A stretch of 64,000 nt of DNA, taken from Humulus lupulus (lineage: Eukaryota; Streptophyta; Magnoliopsida; Rosales; Cannabaceae). Under the pieces are notes generated by a model, which was given only the letters and a program-made list of their open reading frames with translations, was not told where the DNA came from and searched no databases. The stretch lies in assembly GCF_963169125.1 (NCBI RefSeq), contig NC_084794.1, forward strand, positions 93,231,018 through 93,295,017. The letters run 5' to 3'. Each line of letters begins with the position of its first letter. The stretch's first letter is position 1. Made by a program: the position numbers and the translations under genes. Shown piece by piece: positions 18,076-44,035 of the stretch.

Positions 18076-18077
18076 AT

Positions 18078-20212: not shown

Positions 20213-20388
20213 TCCCCAAAGCGAGGATCCAAATCTCTATCCTCACTTTGGGCAACACCGTATTTGGTGACACAATCACCTGATTGGGCTTGCACTTCAT
20301 TGGTCATTTGCAACTCTTTTCCGGCGTTTTCCCTCGATCCATCTTTCTTTGCCTTACATATCGAGGCATTGTAGCACTCCCTCGTTCC

Positions 20389-23793: not shown

Positions 23794-23820
23794 CACTACA
23801 ACAAATAACCCTTTCTACAA
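23794..23820 (+). repeat. Outer CACTA left terminus (type A)
   Basis: CACTACAACAAATAACCC followed by TTTCTACAACA. It matches the right terminus of the inner CACTA (minus strand, 38757-38731: CACTACAACAAAAACCC, then ATTTCCATAACA). Confidence 0.8.
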
Positions 23821-25005
23821 CATAAGAATATAACTTTATTGAAAAAGTATTATAGTAACTAATAAGTAAAGTAAAAAATTCGGTAATGAAAAAGAGGGAA
23901 ATGAAATAAAAAGGCGGCATCTGTGGAAAGCCCGCTCAAAGTAAAACCCATTATTTTTTTTATCTAACTTTAGAATAGTTTCAGTCACTTTTCCCAAAAG
24001 TAAAAAAAAAACCTCATCATTTCCAATCTCATTCCAAACCCAGTTCTTCTTCCTCAACTCTGAAACACCCAAACCTAACCTTTGAGAGGGTGACATTCTC
24101 CTTCGCCTGTGCTTGATCTTCAACTTTGACGGCCACACCCCATCAGCGGGGAGCTCTTCAACTCAAGCTACTGGAAACAAAGAAATTCAGAAGAAATGAG
24201 TGAAAAACCAAGCGTGGTTGTTAGCTTGGACTAGAAGAAGAAGATCAAGTGTGAGTACTACTTTCAGGGTTTGTTCATGGGCCTCTGCTTTCACTCAAGG
24301 AGCAGATTGAGAAGGTCAATTTTTTACTTTTTCTTTCTTTTCTTTCATCTGGTTATTCCTTTCCTTTAATTATTTAAATTTTTGGCTTAATTTAATGGAA
24401 ATTGTGGGTGGTTGAGTTACTGGGTTGTTTATTGGGTTCTTGAAACATGTGAGGATTTTATCCAATAGCCGAAAACTGATAAATTTTTATTATCAGTTTG
24501 AGGAAGAAGAACATTGCTGCTTTTTCATCACTGATTAGTGATTCATCATTAATGTTCTCTTTGTTAATTTTATTATTGCAACCATGATAATAGTGATCTT
24601 TATTTCTATGTTCAAATGTGGTGTGTTCTAGACCTGAAGGATCCTAATCGGCCTTTTCCTGCTGGTACCAATCAGACAACTACAGGTGGACAAATCCAAC
24701 GATTTCTTCTCAATCAATAGGCAATGGCCACCCTTTCTTCTCACTGTAAAAATTTGAAAAAAAAATTAATGCAGAAAAAGGTTTGTTCGTGACAAGAATA
24801 GCAGTGAGTGCATATTGATCTGAGCTAAAGCTTTTAAGCCAAATTCAAAGGCTTTTTTTAAATATATATTTTTTTATTTATCGAATACCCAACCCAAGAA
24901 ACCAAAAGAATAGGGGATAATACAGTTGTGTTGTTTTTGTTTCGATTCCAAAAACAACACATTTTGGATTGAACCCAACAAAAACATCTGGCTTTGTCTA
25001 CAGAA
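23821..25005 (+). other. Left flank of outer CACTA, possible noncoding first exon and intron
   Basis: No confident coding sequence. A GT donor-like site (GATCAAG|TGTGAGTACT region near 24250) ends a purine-rich stretch and could be the end of a first, noncoding exon upstream of the ICME exons. An isolated open stretch around 24630-24718 (DLKDPNRPFPAGTNQTTTGG) has an AG before it and may be another captured exon that I do not recognise. Confidence 0.35.
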
Positions 25006-27149
25006 ATGTCATCCCAACAGATTTTTCCCATAACCCAACATACCCAATTGTCTTCGTATGCATTTCCTGAATCGAACCCTTCTTCAGTCTCGCCTAGTGG
25101 TTCATCTTCAGTAGACACAAGGTTGCTTAAGGTTGAAGATGACCCAACTGTGAGGCTTCTCATTTCTTCATTGTTTGAAAATGAAAAGGCCTCCTTCCAG
25201 CCCATTAAGCCCCTTCTTCCCAAGATAAAAACGACTAAGACGTTTTACCAGCACCGGCGATGCAGAACCAATAGTGAAGATTCTATATCTTCGATATCTG
25301 ACATCGAAGGTTGTCGATCTTTGAGGAGTGATGTTGGCCACGCCGTGGCCGAGACATTCTTGCTCACTCGTCTAAGTTTAAAGCTTTTGAGATATCTTGG
25401 GTGAGTAAGTTTTTATCAGGTTTTGTTGCTTTTTGTTTTTTAATATGGTAATTGGTTTCGTGTATTGTGGTTTGTGATTCTTGTTTGTTTTTAGATCATC
25501 CATTTTTCCAATTTCGATCTGTTTATTGAGTAGCTTCATTTGTAGTTTATTTATTTGATTAATGTAATCAAGCTGCAAAAATTGGCCTTGTCTTTTTTCC
25601 TTTGACAATCAGTTGTATAATGATGAATGGAGGACATAGTGCTAATTGGATGAAATTAAGGTCTTAGGAAGGAGATGTAGTTAGCCTTTGTCTAAAGTTT
25701 GTTGTAATTGCCTCTGAGGAGTACACTTTCTTTTTCGTTTCAAATCATTTTGAATAGAAGACACACACAATACAATCAACTTCATAAAGAATGGTACTGA
25801 TGGACATTGTTAGAGTGTCCTGATTAACATGTGTTTAGCTAAATTTTAACTTGTTAGAGTGTGATGTATCAAGTTGAGGGTAAATTAGAGGGTAATTGAT
25901 CTTAGGTAGAAAACAACATAGAGGAAAGAAAGATAAACTGTATGGAAGAGTGATGATAAAAGCAATTGCAAGTTGTTGAATTGTTGGATTATTCAATAGT
26001 TTACATTAGAACTCTGGCACATTTTATAACAATCCTGGTAATTCTTGCCATCAATGGAAAATTATAAAATTGGCCAGTTTTAATTGGTACAATTTTGTTT
26101 TATCATGATAATTTTTTTAGCAGCTTAAATAGGTACTTCTAAAGCTTCTTTAAGTCTTCTTCCATTTTTCAGAAATGGATGTTCCCTAACCATTTTTCTT
26201 ATATTCAGGGTAGGATACATATGGATGACAAGATTTCTTGCACTTGGTTGTTATGCATTGTTACTTGTACCAGGCTTTTGTCAAGGTCTGCAGCATTTAT
26301 AGTTGTCTGTTTATAAATATTGTTATCAAAGTAGAAATCAGAAAAATCAGTGTATGGGAGAATAACTAGCGTGCCTTTTCATTTCAGTTGGTTACAACTA
26401 TTTCTTCTCCAGTCAGATACGCAAAAGTATTGTTTACGGCGATAAACCAAGGAATAGGTAGGATATCTAGAAACTTTGTGCATTTTTGATATTCTGAATC
26501 TTTTGATTTCAGGATTTGTCGCATTGATACTGAGAGTTGTTTTGCAAGCTGGATCTGAATCTACCTAAAAATAGTGATGGGCCAAAACCAGTCATTGCAT
26601 TTGTAACTGGTGGAGCTTGGATTATTGGGTGAGTTAGATTTTCCCTTGAATAATATTATTGAACACTTGGTCATAGTTAGTATGCCGTAACATTTATGTT
26701 GGCTTTTTTTTTTAATTTAAAAATATTAAAGAATGTATTATGGCATCTGGTTCTGGTTCTGGTTATCAGTTCAAGCTGATGAAACAATGTATTTTTAGAT
26801 AGATAGCAAAAATAAAAGAAATGTGGAGGTGAAGAGCAGCTGGATCTGCCAATTAAAAACAGAAGTAGCATTCCGGGTTGCATAATTACTTTATGTCTTA
26901 ACATCTCTCTCTCTCTCTTGGCTAATGCAGCTATAAAGCATGGGGTTCTCTTATGGGACAACAGTTATCAGAAAGGGACATTATTGTGGCGTGCATAGAT
27001 TACACGTAATGTATTCTTTTCAAATGTTTATGTACTGTACAAATAAAATTCCCATTGTGGACGTTGACTGCCTATGATGCTAACTTTTGTTATTGAAACC
27101 TTCATGTAGAAATTTTCCTCAAGGAACTATTAGTGATATAATAAAAGGG
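25006..27149 (+). pseudogene. Captured fragment of isoprenylcysteine methylesterase (ICME) gene
   Basis: Six exons. Exon 1 25006-25400 starts MSSQQIFPITQ, is Ser-rich, and ends in DVGHAVAETFLLTRLSLKLL. Exon 2 is 26209-26285 (VGYIWMTRFLALGCYALLLV), exon 3 26388-26457 ([19 protein letters not shown]), exon 4 about 26549-26628 ([20 protein letters not shown]), exon 5 26931-27005 (YKAWGSLMGQQLSERDIIVA) and exon 6 from 27110 (NFPQGTISDIIKG). ICME removes the methyl ester from prenylated proteins in endomembranes. The membrane segment and the GGAW oxyanion-hole region are present. The catalytic GxSxG block and everything after it are missing. The exon 4 acceptor reads TTTGCAAG|CTGG, so the phase no longer fits. 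About 40% of the usual ~430 residues remains, so it is not a functional enzyme. Confidence 0.85.
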
Positions 27150-27600
27150 TATTATTTATAACGGTTGAATATGCTACAATCTTTTATGATTTTCGAATAC
27201 CCTTCAGTCTCATGTTACCTGCAAAGGCAAGAATTAGCATGACTCTGATAAAAATATGTATTAGATCATATTTATATATCCATAGTGAATCCACTGAGAA
27301 TAAGAGGAAAACAAATAAAGTATCAACTCAAATGCAGTCCACATTTGAGATCTAGAGGCTTTTGTTGGAGTCAGCCACTGAAAAGGACCTTTGAGGATCT
27401 ACTGGCACAACACTCATCACAACAAGAATAAGGGAACACTTGGAGAGATAGAACTATGACAGAAATGGAGTCCAACTATTTTAATTAATTTCTCTAGCTA
27501 CTGATTTCCCTCAAAATTTTGATATTGCCAATGCAATGTTTACTATTTAGAGTAATTTCCTTTCATTTTTCTTTTAAAAATATATATTTTGAAATAAGTG
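27150..27600 (+). other. Intron-like spacer between ICME and next captured exons
   Basis: AT-rich, no gene recognised. The ICME exon runs into unrelated sequence after ATAATAAAAGGG, so the break point of the capture lies near 27150. Confidence 0.4.
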
Positions 27601-27615
27601 GTTTTCTTATATGCA

Positions 27616-27725
27616 GAGGCCAAATTTTTTACTCGAGAAGCAAATGAATGGTACAAAGAACCTGCTTCAGCAAGCGCTTGTAGCCCTTCAGACGATTTCT
27701 CTCATGATTTTGACGATTTCTCTGT
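27616..27725 (+). pseudogene. Unidentified captured exon
   Basis: After an AG (ATATGCAG|AGG) an open stretch reads EAKFFTREANEWYKEPASAS, then an Asp/Ser-rich end (SPSDDFSHDFDDFS). It has exon-like composition between two recognisable captured fragments. I do not recognise the source gene; it could belong to the same MORC gene or another. Confidence 0.35.
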
Positions 27726-27918
27726 GCGTCTTTCAAAATCTCATCTATGGTTTTTAGATTTCAGTTTCATATTAATAAATATATATATTTGTTGAAATAC
27801 ATATGTTTATTGTTTGTATAATATTTATTTATATATAAATATATATTATACTGTGCAAAGTGATGTGCTTATCATTTTATTTTGTAGCTTGCTTATATTA
27901 GCTTTGATCTTATGATAG

Positions 27919-28017
27919 TTTGATGACATTGGGTCTCAAGGCACAAAAGTTATTATCTACAACTTATGCACTAATGATGACGAGATTGTGGAGTTATACT
28001 TCGATACAGATCCTAAG
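27919..28017 (+). pseudogene. Captured exon of a MORC (microrchidia) ATPase gene
   Basis: A single exon of 33 codons with good borders (ATAG| and |GTAACT) reads FDDIGSQGTKVIIYNLCTND and ends ELYFDTDPK. It matches in style the MORC segment in which FDxIGxxGTKVIIYNLWxND precedes LELDFDTDxEDI. Plant MORC proteins act in heterochromatin compaction and gene silencing. The invariant Trp of NLW is Cys here. The ATP-binding N-terminus and the C-terminal coiled coil are absent. Confidence 0.7.
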
Positions 28018-28297
28018 GTAACTTGTTCTGTCTTTCTTTTTAGTTTCAATAATGTTAAAATTAAAAGAAATATGTTGACACAAAAAGATGCAATGTGTAT
28101 ATAGTCAGTCTCCTTTTGAGCCAAACTTCTCTTAGCAGTCATAGCTTGCAAATTACTTATCCTTTTTGGTATTCTGCTTAAACACAGTCTTAGCTATATT
28201 GTATGCACGCTAGAGACAGTGGTATGCTTGCTGAGATGGTTAGGGACAGTGGTTGTCACCAGCTTAAAAAGTTTACATTAGTATATAGAAGAGATAA

Positions 28298-28300
28298 GAA
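28298..28300. repeat. Target-site duplication GAA, left copy
   Basis: GAA before the inner CACTA terminus at 28301; second copy at 38758-38760. Confidence 0.75.
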
Positions 28301-28760
28301 CACTACAAGAAAAAATGCTTCTAATAACACCAAAAATGTGTTATCAAAACCTTCGATAACACTTTCTAATGTGTTAAGACAGACTGTGTTATCGTAGGTC
28401 AGGGTACTTTACATAACACTTTATCAGTGTTATACAGATGTGTTATTGTACTGTCAACGATAACACAATTTCTGTGTTATTTTAATATATAGATAAGTGT
28501 TGAATTATGTTATTTATAGTCGATACTATAACACTTTTTTTGTGTTATACTACACTTTAGTATAACACTTTTTTTGTGTTATACTACACCTTAGTATAAC
28601 ATTTTTTTGTGTTATACTACACTTTACCATAACACTTTTTTTGTGTTATACTACACTTTACTATAACACATTTTTTGTGTTATACTACACTTTACTATAA
28701 CACTTTTTTTGTGTTATATAATGAAGTTTCCATAACATAATTCTTTGCATAAAAAGTGTT
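28301..28760 (-). repeat. Type B CACTA end with ~34-bp subterminal repeats
   Basis: After the terminus, AACAC/GTGTT words are dense. At about 28527-28720 there are six copies of a ~34-bp unit (TATAACACTTTTTTTGTGTT, then ATACTACACTTTAG), each partly palindromic. The same sequence lies inverted at 43,640-44,032. Subterminal repeats of this kind bind the transposase partner protein in En/Spm (family knowledge). Confidence 0.85.
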
Positions 28761-29117
28761 ATTGTAATATATATTATAACTCAATTTTCGTATTATTGTT
28801 ATATTTAGATATATTTAAATTCTCATTATATATTTTATTTATATTACACTAATTTATTCTATTGTATTTTAATTTTTTTTATATAATTAAAATTAGCTTT
28901 CTAATATATACTAGCATCATCAAATGAACTTGATTTTCAAATAACAAAAAGTAAGAACATTCTACATTGAATTAACAATCCACAATTTAGTTTAAAACAT
29001 GCAACACTGTCATTAACAACAAAATATTCTTTAAGTATTCAAGGAGTCTAAAAGTTACTACTTTCAACACAAAGAAATAAACAAAGTTACTACTTTCAAG
29101 GAGTCTTAAGTATCCTT
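28761..29117 (-). other. AT-rich subterminal sequence of inner CACTA
   Basis: No gene seen. It probably contains the 3' untranslated end of the CACTA accessory gene whose last exon ends at 29118. Confidence 0.4.
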
Positions 29118-29830
29118 TTATACTTCGCTTGTCATATCTGCAAAATAAACAAAGAAATATTTTATTGTTATTATCTAGCATCACAAATTACTTCTAGAAA
29201 AATGCTATGGAAATTATATCCAAGAAAGGACACCACATACAAAATAATAGATTCACAACTACACCAAAGCAAACAAAGAAACCAAACACTAAATTATAAG
29301 ACATTAGTTATTTTTTGAGTATGAAAATGTACCTCTTGGAATAACTTTTTTAGAAGGCCATGCAACTGTGGAACCAACTGCTTCTTGTATTGTAAGCATC
29401 GCATGATTAGGACGAAAGAAGTAAGACTCTGGTACAATAGCAACATCAACTCATACTCGCATAAAGTCTGGTCCAAGAGGCTTTCCATGTACAGTTATAT
29501 TTGGATCACTAGAATCCCAACGACCTTCTGCAACAATTGCATCTGCCCAATCAAGCAAGTAGCAAGCATTCTTCCCTTCTGTAAAGTTATGTCTTTTTTC
29601 TAGTGCAATACTCTACCAAATTTATTTTAAAGACAATATATTAGTTTCTGTAATTGTTCTTCTAAAATGAAAATTTAAAACAATAACAACTTTTGTAATT
29701 TACCTTACGGGACTGAATATTGTTTGACTGCGGTACATTGCGAGACTGTCCTTCGCTTGGTGTCACTTTACCACCAACCTACCTAGTTCCCTGTAGAGTG
29801 TTTGGGATTTCTTTATGGTCTCGTACCTTT
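29118..29830 (-). pseudogene. CACTA accessory protein, C-terminal exons (DUF8039-like)
   Basis: Minus-strand exons. About 29830-29705 reads RDHKEIPNTLQGTR and VGGKVTPSEGQSRNV, with a stop or intron between. 29612-29333 reads NACYLLDWADAIVAEGRWDS, DPNITVHGKPLGPDFMRV, then VDVAIVPESYFFRPNHAMLT and EAVGSTVAWPSKKVIP. The last exon 29137-29118 reads DMTSEV and stop, joined in correct phase. It resembles the C-terminal module of plant CACTA ORFs in which VxVDxVxxPxxxLP... and VGxAxGSHVAWP are conserved. A TGA splits FMRV from VDVAIV. It is the element's own coding remnant and marks A to B as the sense direction. Confidence 0.65.
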
Positions 29831-30431
29831 TCTGATTGTTAATGGATATAAATTTATAATTGATTCCAGATTTGTGGTTTATAGATCATTATTAGTTCTC
29901 AGTTTGATTGTATAACCGTGTATGGTGAGTTGTGTTCAGAATAAGTGGTAAACATTTCTAGAAGAACAAGGTTATTTTAGATTTAGAGAGAGAATTAAGA
30001 CAGAAAATAAAATAGAACTTTAGAGAGAAATAGAATAATAACAGAGAAGGTGAACATTTAAAGAGAATCAAGAGAGGAAGAATTCAGCAATTCATTCATT
30101 TCTTACTAGTGTCAAAAATAGTGTCAAGAACTTGAAATGGGTGGCTATCTTCAACAATAAGTACTTTAGGGCCTTTACTTTGTCAATGTTCTTTTTTTTT
30201 TTATTGGCATTTGTGGTCTTTATATGTAATAGTCGCATATCTTATTAGATGTTTTAGAATGCAGTGCCTATTAATGACTTTCTAGGATATAATATAGGTG
30301 ATACTTCATCATCTCTAGTTATTACAACTTTAAAAAAAAAAATAGGTATTCTTAAATTAACATTCTAGAAAGTCACTAATAGGCTAATGTTGTTCTATAG
30401 AAACAAATAAATTATACTGTGATGATTTCAG
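29831..30431. other. Noncoding spacer in inner CACTA
   Basis: No gene recognised. AGAG-rich block at 29,985-30,080. A short inverted similarity exists between about 30,260-30,290 (AATGACTTTCTAGGATAT) and 30,360-30,390 (CTAGAAAGTCACTAATAGG). Confidence 0.35.
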
Positions 30432-31503
30432 GATTATGTTGGGAACAAGCGGTTGGAGTTATCTGGTCACCTTATTTCCCTACTTTTTGAGGTAAACATA
30501 TATTTTCCCATCTAATGCTTTGCATTGTATAATAACTAGATCTTTAACTTTTTAAATTTTGTTTGGGTGTTTTTTTTTAATATTGTAGGATTTGTTCAAG
30601 ACAATGATTAGTGAGGTTAAGAAGACTGTGGATACTATTTTAACAAAGCCCAGCAGGTCTAGTCGTTTTGACTTTTCTCAGGTAAGCTCTGCTAATTACT
30701 AATTTTTTTTAACAGAAATGTGATGAGAAATATTTTTATCACTAATGTTTACTTAGCTCTCCAAAGTTTCTGTTAGGAGGTTGGAGGATATTGGAACCAA
30801 AATGATTAACTTATAATTTATTTATTTTTGGGTACAGATAAAAACACTGAATTTTTTTCCATTAATTTGATGGTTTCAAGTGAATATTTGTTATCTAATT
30901 CTTATCTAGGGTGCATGTGAAGTGGACAACTTCAAATTTGATTGACTTGACTAGGTTTGCTTTACTACTGGAAAAAGAAATAGATCTTTGATGTGTGTAT
31001 GATTACACAAGAAAAAAACTATTGTTTGGTACTGTCCTAAGCATTTTTAGACTAGGCTTCATTTCATTCTAGTCTAGCTTGTATCCAAATTATTAGATTC
31101 ATATTCAACAGATGTGTTCAATTTTTCTGCAGACTGATTTTAATTTTAGCGACAAGTATGATAGGCTCAAATTGATATCAAACAATAGGATTAAATAAAT
31201 AGAGAGAATTCAGGGGGACTGTATTTTTGAATAAGGAAATATAGAAAAACCTAGGTATGCAAGACCAAGTTCTCTCTAAGTGCAAGAATTTTACTACAGA
31301 AAACAGATTGCAAATATGAAATTTTGATGGAATGTAATTCGGTTCTTCTTTGTGTTATTTGAAAATCGTGTATCATTTCTTTTGTTTTTATGCTAATGCA
31401 GTGGATAGTGAGAGATAGCATAACAATGGGACTTGAGAGGAGCCTTTCTACTGGGAATTGGGATGTTAAGCGATTTAAGATGAGCCGGAAAGGCATGACA
31501 CAG
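30432..31503 (+). pseudogene. Captured exons of RNA polymerase III second-largest subunit (NRPC2)
   Basis: Three exons with GT-AG borders. 30432-30491 reads DYVGNKRLELSGHLISLLFE. 30589-30681 reads DLFKTMISEVKKTVDTILTK and PSRSSRFDFSQ. 31402-31503 reads WIVRDSITMGLERSLSTGNW and DVKRFKMSRKGMTQ. All exon lengths are multiples of three and the frame stays open. The sequence is the conserved part of the Pol III second-largest subunit just before the fork and active-site regions; in the plant protein D.DKDYVGNKRLEL and STGNWDVKRFKM are nearly invariant. Only about 85 of roughly 1,150 residues are here. It lies on the plus strand, opposite to the other fragments in this element. It cannot give a working subunit. 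Confidence 0.9.
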
Positions 31504-34500
31504 GTTGTATACTTCCCATAATTTTAATATTTTTTTCCTGTATATATGTTCTTTCAGCCAATTTTAGTTTATCCAATTTTCCTGCATACTTGGACAATGT
31601 AAAACTACTTGAATCCCTGGTTTCATTACTCAAATCATTTAAAATACCTTCTAGTTCGAAATAGCATTTTGTACTAGTCTGATTGTTTCTTTTCATCGAG
31701 TATTTAGGAGTACTGAAATATGTTTCTGCCATGATTAATAAGTACTGTTTCATGGGTCATAAAACATTAAAACTTTGGCTGTTAATCAGGGCAAGCAACA
31801 TGGGGAGGAGGCATTATTCTTTAATATATTAGTAGCTGGCTTCCATGCCATTATATGTTAAATTAATGGCTGATTGTACATGCATAAGAATTTACATGAT
31901 TGTTAATAATGGAATCCAACATTCCATATGTAAAAATCTTGATTTTGTAAGAAAATGGTTAGGAGCTGACTTCTAGTGGCTTAAACGAGTTATGGGTCAA
32001 ACTAATTATGAATTTTCTTGTATTTTATCTTGCATTTTAGGATGTATAGATGTCCATAATGTGTAAAAACGTGCAAGAAGGTTTTGAATTGACCAAGCGA
32101 TAGCCTTTGCAAAATTTGTGTGTAGTCTGGGATAAGCATTTAAAAAATTAGGTAAATGGCTGATTTTGGACAATTATTTCGGTGGAAAAATCATTGCATT
32201 TTTGGATGATTTTTGGAGAATACATTATTTTAATATTTAAGAATCAAATGGCCAAATTTCAAAGGAGAATTTTAAAAGAGCTGTGAGTTATGAATTTTCA
32301 AAAAATTTGATAAAAATTTATGAGAATTTACCATAGTTTCTGGATAGCCAACTTTGAGTATCCGTTTTACCAAGTAAAAATGCCTAAAATGATTTTATTT
32401 TAGGTGTGAGTGTTTTTTACACAGCCTATTATGGTCCTAAAAAATTTTGGACCAAATTAATAAACCAAATAGATTTTGTAAAGTCTCAAAATTTGTTAAA
32501 AAGATTGACCTATTCCTAGACAGCCTTAAAGTAAGATTTTTGAAAATAAATGTCACTAAGTAAAAATAATTATTTTTGTGTAAAATTTTACAAGAAACTG
32601 CTTGATATAGCCAAGGTTAATTCTGTGAAGTTTGAGAATTTTTGGAGATGTAGTTTTCCAATTATAATTTTCAAACTAATCCAGTTATAACTTAGGACTT
32701 ATAAAGTTTATACTTAGAGAAACATATGAGGACTTTTCTAAGTATTTAACTAAGAAAGCTACAAATTTATATTGGTAATGGTAAAATTTACTTTAGCACA
32801 CCAAATGATTATTAAGATTAATTAGATATTAAAGGGGTAATATTTTAGTAACTCACTGTTTTATTTAAGAGAAAATTTAAAAAAGGTCCAATACCCTAAC
32901 TTTTAGAGTGCCTATATTTTCAAAAGTAGGTGTGATTTTTTCATTAAAGCTTCAGCACATGTAGACATTTTACTTTTTTAAGGAAAAGGGTTTTGGTATA
33001 TGTATAGTTTGTCTTTTAATTTGAACAATATTATCTCAATCAGATAATTATCACCTCTTAACAGAATGATAATGTTTTTTTACTGTCTATGGTTTGTTAT
33101 GGTTAATATTCTTATTCATTGCTCACTTTGTTTTGACAGACTGTATTATGTATATCTAAGTATGTTTGCGAAATTATAAGCCTACATTATTTGTATCAAT
33201 GAATTTGTAGCAAAGCAGATTGTTTTGTGTAGCAAAGTACTTCAACCCCATTCTGAATTTGTTCGGTCATATTTTACTCTTAGGTGGCTAATAACTTTAC
33301 CATTTTCAGGAGCTCTGGGAAGAAAACTAGAGTGCTTTTGTTAGTCTTCGGGTTTTAGAAATTACTGATGTTTTCCACAATGGCTGCTTCCCATAGTATT
33401 GCTACAGACTATGGAAAACTTGATTGATTCTAATTTGCTATCTTAAGAACTAAAGAAAGCATAAAGAGATGATAAATTGTGTAGCTGGGTTTATAGCTAT
33501 ATGATCTAAAATAGCATGAATATGTAGTTTTAATATAATAACTGTAATCATAAAGATTTATATATGATCTAATGCTTTAATATATTTGTATGTAGTTGTC
33601 TAGTGGATTAATTAGAGAAAATATTATCAAAGAAAGTTAAGTATAGTTATTTTCTTCTAATTGTTTCTGTATAATCTTTCTAATTTCAGAAAATTGAGGA
33701 TGGGACTTGAGAAGCTAGCTTGCAAGTTATGATTAAACGAGTTTCAAGTATGGTTCATAGTCTCTCTCTTTGTTTCTTCTTGGCTGGTTGTTTATCGAAT
33801 ACATTTTAGCGCCCCTACTGTTTAAAAGGTTCACTTTCATGAAGAATGATAATAGTAGGTTATTTTTTTAGCTTCAACTGTCCACTGATGTTTTTATTTT
33901 CATGTCATTTTATAGAAAGAACTAAATCAATAGTTTATTGGCAATAGGGATGGAGGAACTATCAATTTTTTTTAACAAGAGAAGGTAATATTCTGGTAGG
34001 AAACTAATTTACTATCATGAGATATTGTTTCTTTTTTCTATTGTTTTGAAAGCAGATTTTTTAAATGGATTTGGTTAAGAATTAGCCTTAATATTAGTAC
34101 TAATTGGAATTGTTTTAGTGGGACACTCTAAATTCCAATGAATAATCATTCCAAAAGCCTTGCTTTAATTTATGCATCACGACAAATCATGATGACTAAT
34201 TATATATATGCTATAATGATAACCAAATGCTATAGTGAATCAATGATAAGATCATCTCAGTGATTCATTCATTCTAAAGTTTATATATTTTCTTTTTCTT
34301 TTTTAACCTATTAAAATTCATTCCTTATTGCTCAAATGGTTTTGATTGTTCTAGTGCTGAGATTTTTAATTGTATGTTATAGCAGTTACTTGATTTTCTA
34401 GTACCATGATTCTTAGTCCCACTAAAGATTTCTTGGTCTAAATCTATTACTAATTTCCAGTACTTTAGTTTCTTAACTTACTTTTGTTAAGTGTCCATAA

Positions 34501-34689
34501 AAGGCTAGTTCAAGAGATTCTAGTGTTGTTTTTAATTTAAAAATCAGATTCTAAAATGGTAGCCACTAACTAATTGGGTTTGGATCAAAGACAAGATTTT
34601 AGCTTGGGTTGTGGCAATTAAATCTAATCTATACATATGGAAATAATGAAAACAATATGACTAAATGAAAATTTTAATCTATACATATA
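31504..34689. other. Noncoding interior of inner CACTA
   Basis: No gene identified; A/T-rich with many stops in all frames. A possible exon near 33690-33745 (after TTTCAG: KIEDGT, stop, EASLQVMIKRV) is too short to name. The stretch 31,960-32,900 has the look of old repeat DNA, but I find no termini. Confidence 0.4.
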
Positions 34690-35060
34690 ATTAAAAATCT
34701 AATCTATACATATAAAAGCTTACCTAACCATCTATCAATACCAAGTCAAAAAATTCAAACAACACACAATAAGTTTTCTTCCTTATATCACCGCAGCACA
34801 CAAACAAATTTTCCATAACCTACTTCTCTAATACACACAAGTTTTCAACCTTCCGTTATCACCGCAGCACACAATTTTAATCTCAGAACCTACTTCTCTA
34901 TGGATGAATATTTAAGATATTCAAACTCCTCTAACATTTTAAAGATATTAATAATAAGAGTTAAAAGAACAAATTACGTACCTCCTGCAAATTACCTTTG
35001 CAATGCTCCTTGCCAATTGGATCCCCAACCTAAAGAATATAATCAATACTTAAAAGATTA
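34690..35060. repeat. CACTA internal segment shared with 9,180-9,600
   Basis: Contains CTAACCATCTATCAATACCA, TTATCACCGCAGCACACAA and ATGGATGAATATTTAAGATA, all with close matches in the same order at 9,240-9,480, next to the CACTA transposase remnant. This indicates a common CACTA ancestor. Confidence 0.7.
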
Positions 35061-36569
35061 ATACAAAATTAAAATTTGTCAATAGATATTAAACAAGCAT
35101 GTATGATAAACTAACAAACTAAACAACATGGCAAGCAAGCTCAAACAACCAAAAATAAAAGTTGGAATATCAAATAAATGTAACAAATTGGGAAATTTTG
35201 GAATAGGTTATTTTTATTATTAATTTATTTGTTAGGTTACGCACCCTGTCTGTCATGTATGCATGTTTTATGTACTTGTATTAAAATTGAATGTATTTGA
35301 GTATTTAGAGTTTTCAATTTAATTATTAATCTTTCTCTTGTTCAGGTGGCTAAAATTTAAAAATGGTCACTACCTACTGTGCAGTGCATTTCATCTGGAG
35401 TAGTGATTGATATGCCAATCAAATGATGGAACCTTGTAGAGTCAGCGGGGTGTGCATAAAGCCTATAAACGATTTAAGACAAATGATGGAACCTTGTAGA
35501 GTCAGTGAGTGATGTGCATTGAGCCTGAAAAAATACAAGACATTTTGCCCTTAAATGAATGTAGCGTGATAAGAAGAGCCCTAGAAACAGCAGGTGTCAG
35601 AAAGGTCATGGCTGATCTTAAGGCAGTCAAGTAAGTAAACTATATGGGTTTTGTTTGTGGGGGGGCCTCTCCAAAATCTTGTGGCTGTTTCAGAATCTTG
35701 TGTCTGCGCTGCATGTGCGTTGGTTGCATTTCATGCCTTATTGAGCTATATAAGTCCACAGGCCACACACCCTTGTGACTCATACTTCCTACCTTTACTA
35801 TTATTAAATACAAATATAGAAAGAAAGAAAAATAAAATTAAAAAGAAGAATTAATGAGAAAACAGTGGCGTATTGGGTGATTCTTGGTGGGTAATGGGAA
35901 TACTATGCATGTCTTTTGTGACTTGAATTTATCATTTTTTATGTCTAAATGTCTTGCACTCCTATCATTTCATTAATAGAAAAAATGCTCTTTAATAACT
36001 GTTGTAGAACATAAAAGTAAAACAGTATACTAAATGCAGATGCAGAGGTTTCCTACTGTAAGCAAATGCAGAGGCTATAAACTTATGTTTTTTTTTTTTT
36101 TGCCTTTCACAATTTCAATTGCAATTGGTCTGTTATGGGGCATTCTGTACTATTTTGCTGGCACAAGACAGCAATAGTGTTTCAAAAACATTTTAAGAAA
36201 ATGAAATGGTGAAAAATGTAGCCTACTTTCATCAGATTATTCTCTCATTTTCATATGATCAAGTACCGGAGACTAATAGTGAACCCTCAACCCTATCGAG
36301 TGGAGATTTTGCGAAAGGGAGTGACATAAATGATTAAACAACAAGAGTTAATCAAATAATAAGAGCAAACCATCCGTCACAAAGATCACTTTCAAAAACA
36401 GCACTTTGACATTACTAACAAGTAACAAAACATAATTACCACCAGAGTTGCAGTTTCATCTCCTGAGGTATATTCATTGATACTTTAAACTTAATTGAGG
36501 CCCAAAAATTCAAAGATATAATCTCTTGGCAATAAGAATGATTACAAAATTACATGAATAGTTGCTAAC
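35061..36569. other. Noncoding interior of inner CACTA with possible unidentified exon
   Basis: A short duplicated block lies at about 35,420-35,520 (AATGATGGAACCTTGTAGAG twice). From 35,512 an open stretch reads MCIEPEKIQDILPLNECSVI, then RRALETAGVRKVMADLKAVK and stop, with a GT after it. It looks like a captured exon but I do not recognise it. The rest is AT-rich and featureless. Confidence 0.35.
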
Positions 36570-37350
36570 CTGATCAAGAACTGTACCAATATCCCTGTTT
36601 TTTTCTACTGTGTCACGCCTTATCCTCCTTGCTAAACGAACATCAGCATCTGCACTGAAAAATTTTCAATGTGAAGTGCCTCAACTTAGTAACACTATAA
36701 AGTGACATATCACGGCATCCCATAGTTAATACAGAAACTATAAAAGAAATCATTATATTAATTGAATCTCAAATGTAATGGTATAATACTGAATAAATTA
36801 GAAAAAAAAAATAGTCAGATAAGCATCTCAAGACCACATATTTGTAGTAGTAACTAATGAAAAGCATCAGAAATACAGAGTAAGAACATCAAGTAGCCTA
36901 AATGATAAAAAAGAAAATAAATGACCTGTATCAACAAATATCTTCATATTCATCAACTCTCGAACACGGGGATCATGAAAAATGAGAATGCCTTCCAAAA
37001 TTATCACCTCTGAAGGGTTTACCTGCACAGCATATGCCGCCATATTGTTGAAGTAAGGGTCCTCTAATTCAGAATTCTAATAGAGATAAGAAACATACTG
37101 ATAATTGCAAGCATGCACATACTTTAAGTACTGAATAACTTTAATTCTCCTATAACTTCCCTTTGGTAAGACAAGTATAAGAAAACAAGAGGAAATTCAT
37201 TAGACCAGCATGTTAAGAAAACAAAAGTTACCCTTCTAGGCGGGAAGACATTGTTTTTGTAACTCTTGAAGTCATAGTTTGGAATATCTACTGCTTGTCC
37301 ATTCCTCAACTTATCCATAGAAGCTAAAAGTTTCTCATTATCAAATGCAT
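36570..37350 (-). pseudogene. Captured exons of uridine kinase (UKL-type)
   Basis: Three minus-strand exons with fitting phases. 37350-37232 reads DAFDNEKLLASMDKLRNGQA and VDIPNYDFKSYKNNV. 37022-36926 reads [20 protein letters not shown] and [12 protein letters not shown]. 36649-36570 reads DADVRLARRIRRDTVEKNRD and IGTVLDQ. These are central parts of the uridine kinase domain of plant UKL proteins, which phosphorylate uridine in pyrimidine salvage. The P-loop exon before it and the rest of the kinase and UPRT-like domain after it are missing. No stop is seen within the three exons. It lies just downstream (minus strand) of the topoisomerase II exon. Confidence 0.9.
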
Positions 37351-37615
37351 CTGACAATAAAAGTAATTTTACATCAAAAGACATGAAAGAGAGAGCATGC
37401 ACCATATAGGAGAAATACATACCATAGTTAGGCTAGTTATCGCTACAAAGCAAACCAATTCTAATGTGCCCCACTAAATGGCTAAAAATATACTATATTT
37501 TTGTGAATTTTTAGCAAGATACAGGTATTAGAAACTGTGTACAAATGGGCACTAAATTACATAAAGTTTAATAGCACAAACCTCATTGCTTGGTTTAAAT
37601 GCTTAGTTTAATAGC

Positions 37616-37836
37616 ACAGGAACTCGTTTTCCATTAAGTTCCACTTTCACAATATTCCCAAGGCATCCAGCCATATCAAAAACTCTCTTTTTCATCAGCG
37701 CAACAACATCATCTTCTAAATGTGTCATGTTAAACTTAGCCAAATCTGGCTTAAAAGTCACCTTGGTCCAGTTGTCACTCTCCTTGCACTTTGTGATCAC
37801 TGGATCAATTTTCTTCCCCATGTTATTGGAGAAAAC
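37616..37836 (-). pseudogene. Captured exon of DNA topoisomerase II
   Basis: The minus-strand exon begins after AAG at 37837 and reads VFSNNMGKKIDPVITKCKES, DNWTKVTFKPDLAKFNMTHL, EDDVVALMKKRVFDMAGCLG and VKVELNGKRVPV. This is the part of eukaryotic topoisomerase II between the ATPase (GHKL) and transducer domains, where WTKVTFxPDLxKF and DVVALMxKRVxDxAG are conserved. The reading frame is open to a TAG/TAA just after VPVLLN, where homology is lost. About 75 of some 1,450 residues are present, so no enzyme can be made. Confidence 0.9.
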
Positions 37837-37859
37837 CTTCAAACAATCAACAAAAAATC

Positions 37860-38340
37860 CAATCAAATCAATATATATGCTGAACCCAATTTCAAATTAA
37901 CCACAGTAGAGAGCTTGTCTTAAATCAAAATCAAGAAATGAAATTTATAAACAAATTAGTCCCAATTTATGGAAAAACTTCAAATCGTCAACACACAAAC
38001 CCAATCAAATCACCATGTCTGCCAAACTATGCTGACCAAAATTTCAAATTAACTAAAAAAGAGAGCTTGTCCGAAACCCAAATCAAGAAATGATCTTTAA
38101 CTAAAAAAGAGAGCTTGTCCGAAACACAAATCAAGAAATGATCTTTAACTTAAAAAGAGAGCTTGTCCGAAACCCTAATCAATAAAACACATGAATAAAC
38201 AAATTATTTCCAAATTAGGGAAAACCTTCAAATATTCAACACGAAACACCCAGTCCACTCAGCAAGTATACTAAGCTCAAAATTCAAATTAACTAAAAAG
38301 ATAACTTGTCTGACATCCTAATCAAGAAATGAACTTCTAT
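37860..38340. repeat. Degenerate tandem repeat cluster
   Basis: AAAAAGAGAGCTTGTCCGAAAC followed by AAATCAAGAAATG occurs at about 38054, 38107 and 38153 (period ~50), with weaker copies near 37911 and 38300. Longer flanking words (ACAAATTA..CCCAATTTA, AAACTTCAAAT) also recur, so the whole stretch seems to have grown by duplication. No coding sequence. Confidence 0.7.
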
Positions 38341-38342
38341 AC

Positions 38343-38555
38343 CAGCTTGTACTTCTTCAGACGCTTTCCATCAGCGGTCTCGATGATAAACTCAGTGATC
38401 GGAGCATAAAAATACCCCATAAATACAAAAATGGATATTAAAAAAAAAGCTTACTGTAATTGAGAGAGGGACACAAATTGGAGAAACATACCAGATCTTG
38501 CTTCCACCATGCGTCGAGGTGATGAAGACACACACAGTGTCATCGTGCTCCTGGA
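38343..38555 (-). pseudogene. Unidentified captured exons near the A end of inner CACTA
   Basis: Minus strand. An exon ending at a good donor (CAAGATCTG|GTATGTTTC, 38493) reads MTLCVSSSPRRMVEARS. A second one at about 38415-38346 reads YAPITEFIIETADGKRLKKY and KL, with donor CTG|GTATAG. The second has a clear protein-like composition. I do not recognise its source. They lie upstream of the topoisomerase II exon in the same sense and could be the first exons of a chimeric transcript. Confidence 0.4.
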
Positions 38556-38599
38556 CAGATTGTATAAGTGGCGGGCAAGCTTAATCGTCCTCCTCCTGG

Positions 38600-38712
38600 G
38601 CAGATTGGTCGAGAAACGAAGAGAGAGAGAGGGGGTAAACGGGGAACGAAGAGAGAAGAGAGAGAGGGTAAACGGGGAACAAAGATAGAGAGAAGAGAGA
38701 GAGAGGGGGGAC
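38600..38712. repeat. GA-rich minisatellite
   Basis: GGTAAACGGGGAACGAAGAG and GAGAGAGAGAG words repeat three times just inside the type A terminus of the inner CACTA. Confidence 0.7.
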
Positions 38713-38730
38713 CGACTGGGACCGACTGTG

Positions 38731-38757
38731 TTATGGAAATGGGTTTTTGTTGTAGTG
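38731..38757 (-). repeat. Inner CACTA right terminus (type A)
   Basis: Minus strand CACTACAACAAAAACCC then ATTTCCATAACA; it matches the outer left terminus at 23794. GAA follows at 38758-38760 as the second target-duplication copy. Confidence 0.8.
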
Positions 38758-38760
38758 GAA

Positions 38761-39800
38761 GATACATTCTTGTTAGTATAAGGTTATCAAAGTTTACCAG
38801 CTTAAAAAGACAGTGGTTGTCAAATATGATATGTCATATATTGAATTGAGGCAGAAAGGAGCATAGACTTGTTAGTATAAGGTTATCAATATTGAGTGTT
38901 GTTTTGGTTTGGTCATATAGTATCTAATTCTGGTAGAGGAACTTGAAAAAGAGATAGTTTTGAACAATTTGTTTGTAGCAATATTCAACAAGGATTGGGA
39001 TGAAAATCAGTTTATGTTTTGTTGTTGAGTTGTGTATTTTGTTTGAGTGATCTTGAGAACTTAGAGAGAATGAGATTATTAATTAGTATTTGTATCTTAG
39101 ATTATAGTTTCCTCCTCTTTCTCTTAGATGATCATTGCTTTGACTTTCTCATCCAAATTTTCAACTTCTAGAACTACATGGATTCATCATGGTAAAATTC
39201 TGGTTTTGGTTGTGTTCTTGTTTTTTCATCATGGTAAAATTCTGGTTTTGGTTGTGTTCAACTTCTAGAACTACATGGAATGGAAGTCTTGTTTTTTCTT
39301 TTCTTTCTAAAATGGGAATTCTCTTTTTGGACTGTTTATGATGTTGTGTTCTTTTCTTTCTAAACTGGAAGTCTTGTTTTTTATGGACTGTTTATGATGC
39401 TCTGTCAAGTACACCCCAGAATCCTTTTTTTTCCTTTTTGAACTGCTGTAGGCCATGATGATGAACATTTAAGTTCTTAGGTGCATAGGAATTTGACAAA
39501 GTAGCAACATCATCAGAAAAAACAACATCATCAGAACTAATGTTGATATATATTTGATAAATTGTAGTGAAAATCAAACATTATAACAAGTATATATAGA
39601 TACATCTCTTTTAATATGCTTTCTTAGTTTGAAATTATCAAGATCAATAGCTAGAGATACACTATATTGATTTTTCTTAATATTTTATTTTGTAAATATA
39701 AGATTGTTCATATCTTTAAAAAATTTCTTACATATATAGATACATCTCTCCTAATATGCTTCAGCCCCATGTATTATTTCATATGGAAATAGACAAGGCT
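38761..39800 (+). other. Outer CACTA sequence right of the inner insertion
   Basis: No gene recognised. Short local repeats: CTTGTTAGTATAAGGTTATC at 38770 and 38867; CATGGTAAAATTCTGGTTTT at 39190 and 39230. AGCTTAAAAAG and ACAGTGGTTGTCA near 38800 echo words just left of the inner insertion (28245-28270). Confidence 0.4.
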
Positions 39801-40488
39801 TATTATATATACTATTGTAAACACAACCTCAAAACAAGAACATAAACACCTCATAAACCAGAAAAAAATTGATCAATAATCAATCTTAAAGACAAAACTG
39901 GTTTAATCAAGGAATCAAATCAAAACAGAAATGAAACATAAAGAGGAACACAAACACAAACACATACGTGGTTCGAATGAGTGTTGGCTAGACACCACTC
40001 TACTCCACGGCCAAAACCAGCCCCAAGGGCTTGACAATCTCTTTATTGATTCTAAGTTTCAATCCGTAAAACAATGGAGTCTAGCTCCAAGCTTCTCTCA
40101 TAACAGTAGTACAAGAGTTCTCTAGGCTCTCTAAAACTCACTCCCAATATTACAATGTATGTAAAAACTGAATTGGATTAAATGATAGAAGAGGAGCCTT
40201 ATATATACATGTGATGTAAGTGACTGACTACTAGTAGAGAATTATTCTTATTATTATAGAATATAGTTTATGCATTCTAGGTGTTTGAGTGAATGTCTCA
40301 ATAAGTACAAAATACTCAATAGACTTGTGTGTTATTTATTGTGTGAGTGGCAAATGACTACTGGTAGAGAATTTTTTCTTTTCTTTTGATTCTCTCAGTT
40401 GGTGTTTTGTGTGAATTTACACAACTTGATGCATATATTCTTCTATATAAATGATCTTTTTTGGCTTTTCTTGATATGAGAATTAACA
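39800..40488 (-). repeat. Probable solo LTR, minus strand
   Basis: On the minus strand it starts TGTTAATTCTCATATCAAG at about 40488 and runs to near 39,800-39,900. It contains the plus-strand word ACATACGTGGTTCGAATGAG followed by CACTCTACTCCACGGCC, which recalls the R/U5 part of copia-type LTRs (recollection). I could not find an exact left border or a matching target duplication. Confidence 0.45.
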
Positions 40489-42098
40489 CTAACTGTATTA
40501 GGCATTATTGTTAGTGTTTATTTACTCTCTTCCTTCTATGATTTGTATGGAACAATTCATTTCCAATTTGTTTTATGTTCAAATAAATTCAAATTTTATT
40601 CTTTTTCATGTCATTAAAAGTTTTACATCGTTGTCTTTTTCTTTATAATTTCATTTTAGCCAAATAAGAAAAGTCAATTTTGGTTGCTATTTGGTAACTA
40701 GAAAGTAGTATTTTAGTTTTGAATATTTAATGGAGAGTTAATATTATTGGAAAAGTATGCTCTGATTTTGGTGTTTTAGTTTTGAATATTTAATGGAGAG
40801 TTACTAAGTTGTAGCAAGAAGTTGAAAATTGGATCATATTGTTTGGAGTAGAAATACATGTGTTTTAGTGTTTTTTTTTTCTTCATGTAAACAGAAAATC
40901 ATGGATTCCCTGTACTTTTTAGCTTAAGAAATTTGCTTGGCATGTCTCATTTTCTGTTTCTTGTGAACCTTTGTTATTGACACCGAGTTAGATGCATTTT
41001 TTACTGACTCAAGTTTCATTTTCAAGTTTCAAGTTTCTGTACTTGGGTATATTGTTAAATGAGTCCTTTGATTACAGTTTTTAAAAAGACGATGCTTCTT
41101 CCTGCCCTTCTTTATTATTGAAATTAATTCCCCTGCTCATGTATGTTGTTCGGTGTGATTATATGCTGAATATCATTCCTTGTATTTTCTCCTGTGTGAA
41201 TTGATTTTGTTATTAATTTTTAAATTCTATACAAGTGTAACTTAAATAAGTATGTGAATATTTCAGCATGATCTAGAATATGATATTTTAGTCATAAATT
41301 TATGAATTTGATATTGTTGTTAGAAAGTTACTTAGTAGACTTTGTCTGTTTTCAGTTGGTGAACACAGGAAAGGAAAGGGCAAAAGTCAGCCTTCTTTTT
41401 ACATGGGCGGTAAGCATCTCTTTTCCTAACATAATTGTGTATAATTACTCCTAGATGTTGAAATTCTTGATTTCAGGTATTGACTTGCATGAAACTTATA
41501 TAAATTTTTCTTCATTTTGTTTGAGACAACTATGACAAAGTTCAGAGTGGGGATTTCCTGATTATCACATATATGGCTGTCATGAAACATCTAATATCTA
41601 ACAATATTTGAACTAAATGTATGCTCTGGTGTATTGAGCAAAACTCATATTGCAGTTCTGAGAGCAAAATATGGTTCTTTTGTTATTTCATTGTTGCTAT
41701 TAGATGGCTGTCTTTACTTGTCCCTAACTGACAAAATAATATTTTTTCATTACTCTCTTTTTCAAAGGCAAAAAATGTCCAGTTAACAATAATTTCCGTA
41801 GCTAGTGTTATGGTGCTCTAAATTTGATTATTGTACCCTTCCTAAGACTATTTCATGGTTTGGAAAACTATCTATGGCTTTGAGGTTTTTTTTCTTAAAA
41901 AAATAGATGTTAAAGGAGATAGCTTCTGACTAGATAATCTCTAGAAAAAGGTTGAGATATGACTTTACTTGTCCATTCAGGCCATTTTTGCCAAGTACTT
42001 CTGATTTCTGTTTTTCATGGTTGGACTATGCGCTCGTTCTTCTGCATTGCTCATATTTTGATGCTTCTCTGATTTTTCATAATGTGTTTTCTAACCAG
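40489..42098 (+). other. Noncoding part of outer CACTA
   Basis: Short direct repeats (TTTAGTTTTGAATATTTAATG at about 40711 and 40778). A possible exon at about 41357-41410 between AG and GT (LVNTGKERAKVSLLFTWA in one frame) cannot be named. Otherwise AT-rich without coding signal. Confidence 0.35.
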
Positions 42099-42187
42099 GA
42101 AGGCAATGTTGCCAACCAGAGGGAACATCGAATTCTTCTCCTTGCCAATATTCACATTCAGAAAGCTAATAAGCAGCTGTCTTGAAG
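42099..42187 (+). pseudogene. Captured exon resembling callose synthase
   Basis: After CCAG| the exon reads EGNVANQREHRILLLANIHI then QKANKQLS and TGA, with donor GAAG|GTATT. NVANQREHxILLLANxHIR is a hallmark stretch of plant callose synthases (glucan synthase-like), N-terminal to the FKS1 domain. The part after HI differs from that family, so either the exon junction or a mutation changes it. The source gene would encode a membrane enzyme making beta-1,3-glucan. The fragment is too short for function. Confidence 0.6.
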
Positions 42188-42490
42188 GTATTCTGATTGT
42201 TAATTAAGGTTGTAAAGCTTTGGCTTTAACTAATCCTTTTATATAAATTTGAATTTATGACCTTGATTCTTGGTTGAAGACACCCTCCATATATGTTTTT
42301 GATTGCTCTGCGACTGGGGGAATATTGTGAATGCTTTTATTGAGGTAAAGCTTTAACTCAAAACATATAATGAATTGATATATGTATTGATAATTAAGGT
42401 GCTACGTGACATGAATTCATTATCTGTAATTCAGATGTTTATATATAAATATATTTGTAAATATAGTGACTTGATTTGATGGTTTGGAAG

Positions 42491-42648
42491 CTTCATGATT
42501 GGGTTGCTTCTAGCTCCTTTGGATCCACAAGGGATTGCATTCTACTTGGAGCTTGTGAAGCACATGAGACTCTTCCACAAAGTGCTGAATTTCTTGCAGA
42601 TGTGTTTACGTCTTGTCTCACAACACCTATTAAGATGGCTTTGAGATG
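42491..42648 (+). pseudogene. Captured exon of RAPTOR (TOR complex 1 subunit)
   Basis: The exon reads [40 protein letters not shown] and [12 protein letters not shown](W), with donor GATG|GTGAGC. In plant RAPTOR proteins [26 protein letters not shown] and [21 protein letters not shown] are nearly invariant; the segment lies in the caspase-like N-terminal conserved domain that presents substrates to TOR kinase. The frame is open. Only about 52 of some 1,350 residues are present. Confidence 0.88.
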
Positions 42649-43283
42649 GTGAGCTTCTTTTCTTGTTCTTCTGTTAGGATCGCCTATCGCGTTTATGCAT
42701 CTTTATTTGAGATCATGCAGTTTTCTGGTTTTGCCTTGTGGTGTTTATTCCTTATTGGCTACTTCCTAGTTATTTTTAGTTTTCTAGTTTTGCCTTGTGG
42801 TGTTTATTCCATATGCCTTGTGACGTGATTGGTTTGAATAGATGCTTTGAAATATACACAAGTTAGCTAATCTCTGCCTCTATTTTAGGCAGTGAATGCA
42901 TTTTCTTATGAGACTAAATTTTTTTTGTTGTATTTTAAGTTATGGATAACAATTGGTTTTTATTTTTTGAGATAACAATTGGTTTTTGTGCTGTGGATCA
43001 TTAGATCTGTTTTATTAACATAAGGATGTAATATTTGCTTCTACATTTACTATCATTCTAGTCAAGAAATTTAGTATAGTTTAGTTACAAGTAATTTAGT
43101 TGCTGCTGTTGACAATTTGTGGTATCTAAAAGATGGAATACATACTGTAGTCTTGAAAAAACTTTCAGAAAATGGTAAGAGCTATGTGGGTTTTACAGTT
43201 TTTTTTTTTTATACTTCAAGCACTGATCTGTAGACTTATCTTAGTTTTTTGTGGATCCTACTCCATTTTCTAGGATCTTGCAG
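42649..43283 (+). other. Noncoding spacer in outer CACTA
   Basis: No gene seen. A ~75-bp direct repeat lies at about 42720-42810 (TTTTGCCTTGTGGTGTTTAT twice), probably a local duplication. Confidence 0.4.
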
Positions 43284-43429
43284 GCAAAGGACACCAAGTG
43301 AATTAGATAGAGAGGTTAAGAACTTGAGGGTGGCATTTACTGACCTATTTTTGAAGCATAACACTTTCAAAGAAACTGCAAAGCCATCGAGATATTGGTA
43401 CAAAGAATGGAAGAATGTATTTCACTAAT
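43284..43429 (+). pseudogene. Unidentified terminal exon near the B end
   Basis: An open stretch preceded by TTTTCTAG| reads GSCRQRTPSELDREVKNLRV, then AFTDLFLKHNTFKETAKPSR and YWYKEWKNVFH, followed by TAA. The composition is protein-like. Position about 600 bp from the B terminus is where the last exon of an A-to-B transcript would end. It may be captured host sequence or CACTA-specific; I do not recognise it. Confidence 0.35.
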
Positions 43430-43639
43430 TTTTGTATATATTTTTTGTTTTGTATTTAGTGATAAAGGAATCTGAATTGGGCAAAAATTATGTTGTAATA
43501 TGATTTCTTAAGCCTAGACTAGTAGACTAAATATTGTAATTACATTTGAGTAATTAATAAAAATCTATTTATGTTACCTTATTTGGCTTCAACTTTCATA
43601 TTTGTTTTCCTAGTTTTGTGTAAGTAAAAAAAGATTATG

Positions 43640-44032
43640 TTTCTCTAAGCTAATATAACACATGTATTATACTAAAGTGTAGTATAACACAAATAATGTG
43701 TTATACTAAAGTTTAGTATGACACAAAAAATGTGTTATATAAAGTGTAGTATAACACAAAAAAAGTGTTATACTAAAGTGTAGTATAACACAAAAAAAGT
43801 GTTAAATAATCAACTATAAATAACATAATGCAACACTTATCTATATATTAAAATAACACGGAAATTGTGTTATCGTTGACAATACAATAACACATCTGTA
43901 TAACACTGATAAAGTGTTATGTAAAGTACCGTGACCTACGATAACATAGTCGGTCTTAACACATCAGAAAGTGTTATCGTATGTTTTGATAACACATTTT
44001 TGGCGTTATTAAAAGCATTTTTTCTTGTAGTG
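43640..44032 (+). repeat. Type B end of outer CACTA with subterminal repeats
   Basis: Inverted copy of 28,301-28,740. TATACTAAAGTGTAGTATAA units lie at about 43670-43800, followed by the terminus AAAAGCATTTTTTCTTGTAG and TG at 44032. Confidence 0.85.
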
Positions 44033-44035
44033 AAC
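44033..44035. repeat. Target-site duplication AAC, right copy
   Basis: Pairs with 23791-23793. Confidence 0.8.

Follow-up and report, generated by a model that had tools for sequence, protein, structure and literature searches.

Introduction

Gene capture by CACTA transposons is already established, as several publications indicate (PMC1947982, PMC5105172, PMC8903248, the review PMC13317346 and, for Chenopodium, PMC8978399). In particular, the 5.7 kb soybean CACTA element Tgm-Express1, studied at one insertion, carries five gene fragments that are spliced into chimeric transcripts (PMC1947982), and most CACTA Pack-TYPE elements in rice and maize occur at low copy number (PMC8903248). Among the literature titles listed, none concerned gene capture by CACTA elements in hop. 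The present analysis concerns a 64,000 nt stretch of the hop (Humulus lupulus) genome, the window (C2:93231018-93295017), in which one CACTA element lies inside another. The two are, with high confidence, non-autonomous members of a single Pack-CACTA (En/Spm superfamily) family that hold captured pieces of host genes.

Two nested CACTA elements of one family

All four element ends read CACTACAACAAA or CACTACAAGAAA, terminal inverted repeats (TIRs) beginning with CACTA as in the CACTA/En/Spm superfamily. In particular, the outer element opens with CACTACAACAAA at 23794, its partner ends at 44032 and the flanks are AAC/AAC; the inner element opens with CACTACAAGAAA at 28301, its partner ends at 38757 and the flanks are GAA/GAA. 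Both pairs of flanks within the window are 3-bp target-site duplications (TSDs), the length typical of the superfamily, and its subterminal repeats are present as GTGTTATA/TATAACAC units repeated at the 3′ ends. Moreover, the 3′ end of the inner element (28301-28718) and that of the outer element (43651-44032) are 92-93% identical, with 355 of 381 aligned bases in common along some 380 bp, and the 5′ ends of the two are alike over about 28 bp only. The window holds two nested elements of one CACTA family in opposite orientations, with ends and nesting as the first-pass annotation of this DNA had described them.

When joined, the flanks of the outer element read as an open frame of a gypsy gag, and the site of the inner element is empty in all five fetched sister copies of the outer element, with alignments that run straight across it at 92.7-99.2% identity. 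A gypsy-type gag-pol at 44059-47713 (plus strand) continues the gag frame that the outer element breaks. Within the genome searched (2.478 Gb, 121 contigs), nine 20-kb neighbourhoods were fetched around family copies (cA to cI), and five of these copies have both ends and matching 3-bp TSDs: cA (9.1 kb), cB (9.1 kb), cD (16.6 kb), cE (15.4 kb) and cF (10.5 kb). Further, cA and cB are composites of about 9.1 kb that are 97.4% alike and have different TSDs. The presence of the same composite at two such sites, together with the absence of the inner element from the five sister sites, indicates that members of the family have moved with their cargo. In addition, copy cD hosts another nested CACTA element that has different ends (CACTACAAGAAAAAAAGG) and the TSD TTT.

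Six-frame Pfam scans (the inner element from 28900) found no transposase above cut-off in either element. Both are non-autonomous and, like Pack-CACTA elements, have no transposase gene. A single PF03017 remnant at 29337-29612 scored 18.2 bits (E 0.0023), short of its cut-off of 21, and E 0.02 in another scan; it adjoins the inner 3′ end and fits the inner element read on the minus strand.

Captured pieces of host genes

The cargo of the two elements comes from eight supported sources, a ninth (GH116) that is probable and a tenth (callose synthase) that is putative, named from a family motif (Table 1). The first-pass annotation had counted at least seven. Six of its seven are supported (NRPC2, TOP2, uridine kinase, RAPTOR, ICME and MORC), the seventh being the putative callose synthase, and the count itself was too low, with ISPE/CMK, a BRE1/HUB1-like ligase and the probable GH116 exon overlooked. 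Its broader claim, gene capture by a CACTA family, is borne out by pieces that lie within elements having TSDs and empty sites.

The recognised pieces of the outer element (ICME, ISPE, MORC6, the probable GH116, the putative callose-synthase-like exon, RAPTOR and HUB1) are all on the plus strand; in the inner element, NRPC2 is on the plus strand and uridine kinase and TOP2 are on the minus strand. The splice sites of the cargo exons are plausible and mostly GT/AG, and some piece ends are truncations. Matches that support the assignments include those of the NRPC2 piece (PDB RPC2, E 8.5e-24; plant Pol III C2 proteins, for example P0020 at 79%), the uridine kinase piece (PDB uridine-cytidine kinase 2, E 3.4e-23; Pfam PRK, 5.2e-9) and the TOP2 piece (PDB TOP2, E 4.7e-13). 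The ICME piece matches Pfam BD-FAE at E 6.7e-6, its 26.2 bits falling below the cut-off of 26.8, and the MORC6 exon is 69-72% identical to MORC6 of other plants (E 3.5e-5 to 1.1e-3), with MORC4 its only PDB match (E 0.57). The exon at 41356-41409 probably comes from a GH116 glucosylceramidase: joined to the next exon, its sole Pfam family is GH116N (E 0.14), and its sole PDB match is non-lysosomal glucosylceramidase (E 0.3). The exon-like stretch at 35554-35631 matches no Pfam family.

Table 1. Features of the two nested CACTA elements (window coordinates).
Feature	Position	Strand	Remarks
Outer CACTA element	23794..44032	+	TIRs, TSD, sister copies; 20,239 bp with inner element, 9,779 bp own
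Outer left TSD AAC	23791..23793	.	joined flanks form open gag frame
Outer right TSD AAC	44033..44035	.	
Family 5′ region (as taken)	24006..24670	+	recurs without ICME block at other loci
ICME (isoprenylcysteine methylesterase-like) block	24667..27139	+	5′ part of gene, exons 1-6 and their introns; start codon 25006; cut on the right inside exon 6
ISPE/CMK exon (4-diphosphocytidyl-2-C-methyl-D-erythritol kinase)	27619..27723	+	84% identity to hop and Cannabis proteins; block ~27139-27854
MORC6 exon	27919..28017	+	block ~27852-28297
Probable GH116 (GBA2-type glucosylceramidase) exon	41356..41409	+	weak but sole matches
Callose-synthase-like exon	42099..42182	+	putative, named from family motif
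RAPTOR exon	42488..42649	+	PDB Arabidopsis RAPTOR 8e-24; Pfam Raptor_N 1.6e-6
BRE1/HUB1-like E3 ligase piece	42956..43408	+	intron present; ~250 bp internal deletion relative to parent
Outer 3′ terminal region	43651..44032	+	subterminal repeats
Inner CACTA element	28301..38757	-	10,457 bp; same family as outer, opposite orientation
Inner left TSD GAA	28298..28300	.	empty site in sister copies
Inner right TSD GAA	38758..38760	.	
Inner 3′ terminal region	28301..28718	-	many GTGTTATA-type subterminal repeats
Tnp1/EnSpm-like remnant (PF03017 Transposase_23)	29337..29612	-	below curated cut-off
NRPC2 (Pol III second-largest subunit) piece, 3 exons	30432..31503	+	30432-30491, 30589-30681, 31402-31503
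Exon-like stretch, no assigned origin	35554..35631	+	open frame ahead of GTAAG-like donor
Uridine kinase piece, 3 exons	36570..37354	-	block 36200-37602 recurs at other loci
TOP2 piece	37615..38396	-	parts of 2 exons with intervening intron; both cuts inside exons

Outside the two elements, the window contains a second gypsy-type gag-pol at 17082-20835 (minus strand) and, at 51566-52228, a 332-bp unit in two identical tandem copies. No Rfam RNA family reached its gathering threshold anywhere in the window.

Parent genes

For three of the ten sources (ICME, HUB1 and TOP2), the host fragments have a parent gene elsewhere in the genome, on other chromosomes, as is characteristic of Pack-CACTA cargo; the first-pass annotation had proposed that such parents be sought. 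The ICME parent at C3:69606632-69609095 matches window positions 24667-27139 at 96% and nothing beyond, and further ICME exons follow in it on the far side of the cut. The HUB1 parent at C7:109680977-109685885 has nine exon matches to the hop BRE1-like protein (residues 112-782 of 878); the window piece at 42956-43408 aligns to it in two segments, at 92.6% and 94%, between which about 250 bp of the parent are absent, a gap common to copies cA, cB and cC. The TOP2 parent at C4:2994991-2996832 has exons for query residues 3-393 in line, beyond which the query finds no match; further TOP2 exons downstream, with the stretches EGDSA and PLRGKLLNVRE, were recognised against TOP2 proteins of four other plants. 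The TOP2 piece and this parent align over 782 columns, with 701 identities, 19 mismatches and 62 gap positions, and the parent continues at both ends. The retention of introns, together with cuts that fall inside exons, implies that capture took place at the DNA level.

Recurrence of the blocks in the genome

The captured blocks recur widely, the loci below being counted mostly by sequence match to a block. The best 40 of 1737 candidates for the inner 3′ end, the window included, all match at 89-100% in their best stretch. On the left of the outer element, the 24006-24670 block occurs without the ICME block at 15 other loci, where the match covers 480 bp or more and, at 11 of them, 600 bp or more (best 40 of 99 candidates), and the ISPE-MORC part (27100-28297) is present whole with its ICME joint at five other loci, at 93-98% (best 40 of 150). 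One of these five sister loci carries nearly all of 24000-27600 (best 40 of 99).

On the right, among the best 40 of 1362 candidates for 40900-43640, 10 other loci hold the complete RAPTOR-HUB1 block (42258-43640), at 96-97%, and about 29 loci hold all or nearly all of the block at about 41025-42260, at 94-98%; where a locus has both blocks, about 238 bp may separate them. Five loci in the same search have a joint without RAPTOR, from 42226 to 42730, with an overlap of 8 bases each, and the region 42261-43014 is absent from cA, cB and cC. In the inner element, the uridine kinase and TOP2 composite (36200-38450) recurs at 5 other loci at 98%, throughout at one and over query positions 274-2249 at four (best 40 of 107).

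Longer forms of two pieces are also dispersed. HUB1 residues of about 112-230 occur alone at 39 loci besides the parent (P0003 as query; best 52 of 2942, a count that includes weak look-alikes). This form is a longer version of the window's HUB1 piece, and 9 of the 39 loci coincide with loci of the RAPTOR-HUB1 search; the window, where the first of these exons is largely missing, is not among the candidates scored. A second HUB1/BRE1-like part, residues of about 335-462, lies at nine further loci and is dispersed separately from the first (same search). For TOP2, a three- or four-exon piece is found at about 5-6 loci, the window's short piece at six including the window, and one later exon alone at many others (best 69 of 119). 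The window's TOP2 block is 97-98% identical to six of seven longer or other pieces, 95% to the seventh and 90% to the parent (gaps counted); being closer to the longer pieces than to the parent, it was probably trimmed from a longer capture.

Other members of the family carry different cargo. Sense-frame scans of four complete members, cA, cD (5′ 6.9 kb), cE and cF (3′ 9.8 kb), found further host-gene domains in three of them: SNF2 (2.6e-10) and SBP (8.3e-8) above cut-off and actin (9.1e-4) below it in cA; a kinase domain (1.7e-12) above cut-off and FH2 (7.7e-5) and FIGL1_N (0.0019) below it in cD; and Helicase_C (3e-15), above cut-off, in cE. The earlier hint that growth and chromatin genes (TOR, Pol III, Topo II, MORC) were favoured is not supported, given the SNF2, SBP, kinase and helicase domains of these members, and because a short exon is enough to identify a gene only where conservation is strong.

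Possible expression

The recognised pieces of the outer element all run in its own direction behind an ICME start and 5′ region, so that a spliced chimeric transcript would be possible. Moreover, P0002, a hop gene model annotated as pyruvate kinase isoform X2, has a C-terminal part made of HUB1 exons that are 100% identical to the window over the aligned part, and its alignment with the hop BRE1-like protein starts at residue 266. Because an annotated hop protein contains captured HUB1 exons, chimeric transcripts from the captured exons are plausible. A bolder proposal, which is unlikely as a whole, is that this high-copy Pack-CACTA family amounts to genome-wide exon shuffling in hop, where captured promoters would drive multi-gene composites as new chimeric genes, the pyruvate kinase-HUB1 model being one, and where the many copies would yield small RNAs touching the parent genes that serve TOR signalling and histone ubiquitination or encode topoisomerase II. 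For annotators, the apparent presence of the same cargo in at least one hop gene model is a warning.

Three Camellia proteins (P0015, P0018 and P0023) pair their match to the exon chain with unrelated domains (protein kinase, leucine-rich repeat and PF07393). These fusions possibly reflect an independent transposon capture, in tea, of TOP2 or another of these genes.

Origin of the composites

The assignment to a Pack-CACTA family has several points against it. Parents were located for only 3 of the 10 sources, and DNA searches with the RAPTOR, callose, GH116, uridine kinase, MORC6 and ISPE blocks (best 40 candidates each) distinguished no parent among the copies. The GH116 assignment depends on weak matches, and the exon at 42099-42182, which we take to be callose synthase from a family motif, matched nothing relevant in PDB (designed repeat proteins only) or Pfam. 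Four of the nine fetched copies (cC, cG, cH and cI) have no 5′ end within 20 kb; four of the five ISPE-MORC sister loci match only from 25122 or 25152 and are without the ICME start codon at 25006 (best 40 of 99). Further, no host-gene family was found in cF at E 0.1 (3′ 9.8 kb scanned), and the 5′ stretch of cE gave nothing at E 0.01. Finally, no autonomous member turned up, no genome-wide search having been aimed at one, and mobilisation in trans is an assumption.

Among the other explanations, the best survivor is that the gene pieces arrived as Helitrons or Pack-MULEs inserted within a CACTA element, rather than as captures by CACTA itself. Nesting of elements does occur in this family, in the window and again inside cD; however, many loci share blocks that have the same borders yet are combined differently, and the complete members of this one CACTA family differ in the host genes they hold, which together make such an origin very improbable. 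Pack-MULEs have 9-bp TSDs and Mutator TIRs, and the elements themselves, with 3-bp TSDs and CACTA ends, are not of that kind.

Marginally less probable again is a domesticated chimeric gene, under selection on a former transposon. The shared strand of the outer pieces behind the ICME start and the annotated fusion of these HUB1 exons to fragments of pyruvate kinase would suit a gene of this sort, but the many copies of variable composition resemble transposon amplification, and no open frame across the pieces was demonstrated. Acquisition of the pieces as spliced RNA, with later insertion into CACTA elements, has next to no probability, nothing having turned up in its favour, and is rejected for ICME, HUB1 and TOP2, whose cuts lie inside exons and whose introns are present and like those of the parents (ICME block 96%, HUB1 92.6-94%, TOP2 90%, gaps counted). 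Chance or mis-assigned repeats are dismissed on the three parent genes, which, with the TSDs and empty sites, also speak against the two outcomes named beforehand as fatal to capture: one ancestral gene order outside any transposon, or fragments of unrelated repeats.

Under capture by the CACTA family itself, host pieces would enter as DNA, through template switching in the repair of an excision gap or through fusion of neighbouring insertions. Internal deletions at short homologies would then shorten the captured pieces, and intact relatives would supply the transposase that mobilises finished composites. The hop family allows capture to be followed stepwise in one assembly, from parent through longer piece, trimmed piece and composite to amplification and nesting, and this record makes the mode of gene acquisition by CACTA elements, gap repair or neighbour fusion, testable from the joints.

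Comparison with known systems

The hop family is a Pack-CACTA family of a known kind that is unusual in its number of sources and its copy number. Like Tgm-Express1, its members are non-autonomous CACTA elements that hold exons, together with introns, from several unrelated host genes; in contrast to the five sources of Tgm-Express1, the hop locus has about ten sources in two nested elements, and its composites are found at many sites. It shares CACTA ends, absence of transposase and captured coding DNA with the Pack-CACTA and Pack-TYPE elements (PMC8903248), but blocks of single composites occur in hop at tens of loci, unlike the low-copy elements of rice and maize. The Tpn1 family of Japanese morning glory is similar in its conserved termini, 3-bp TSDs and host genes that replace internal sequence, and chimeric transcripts of Tpn1 are reported (PMC5105172). 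It belongs to another species, and multi-gene composites of the size seen in hop are not described for Tpn1 in the available part of that report.

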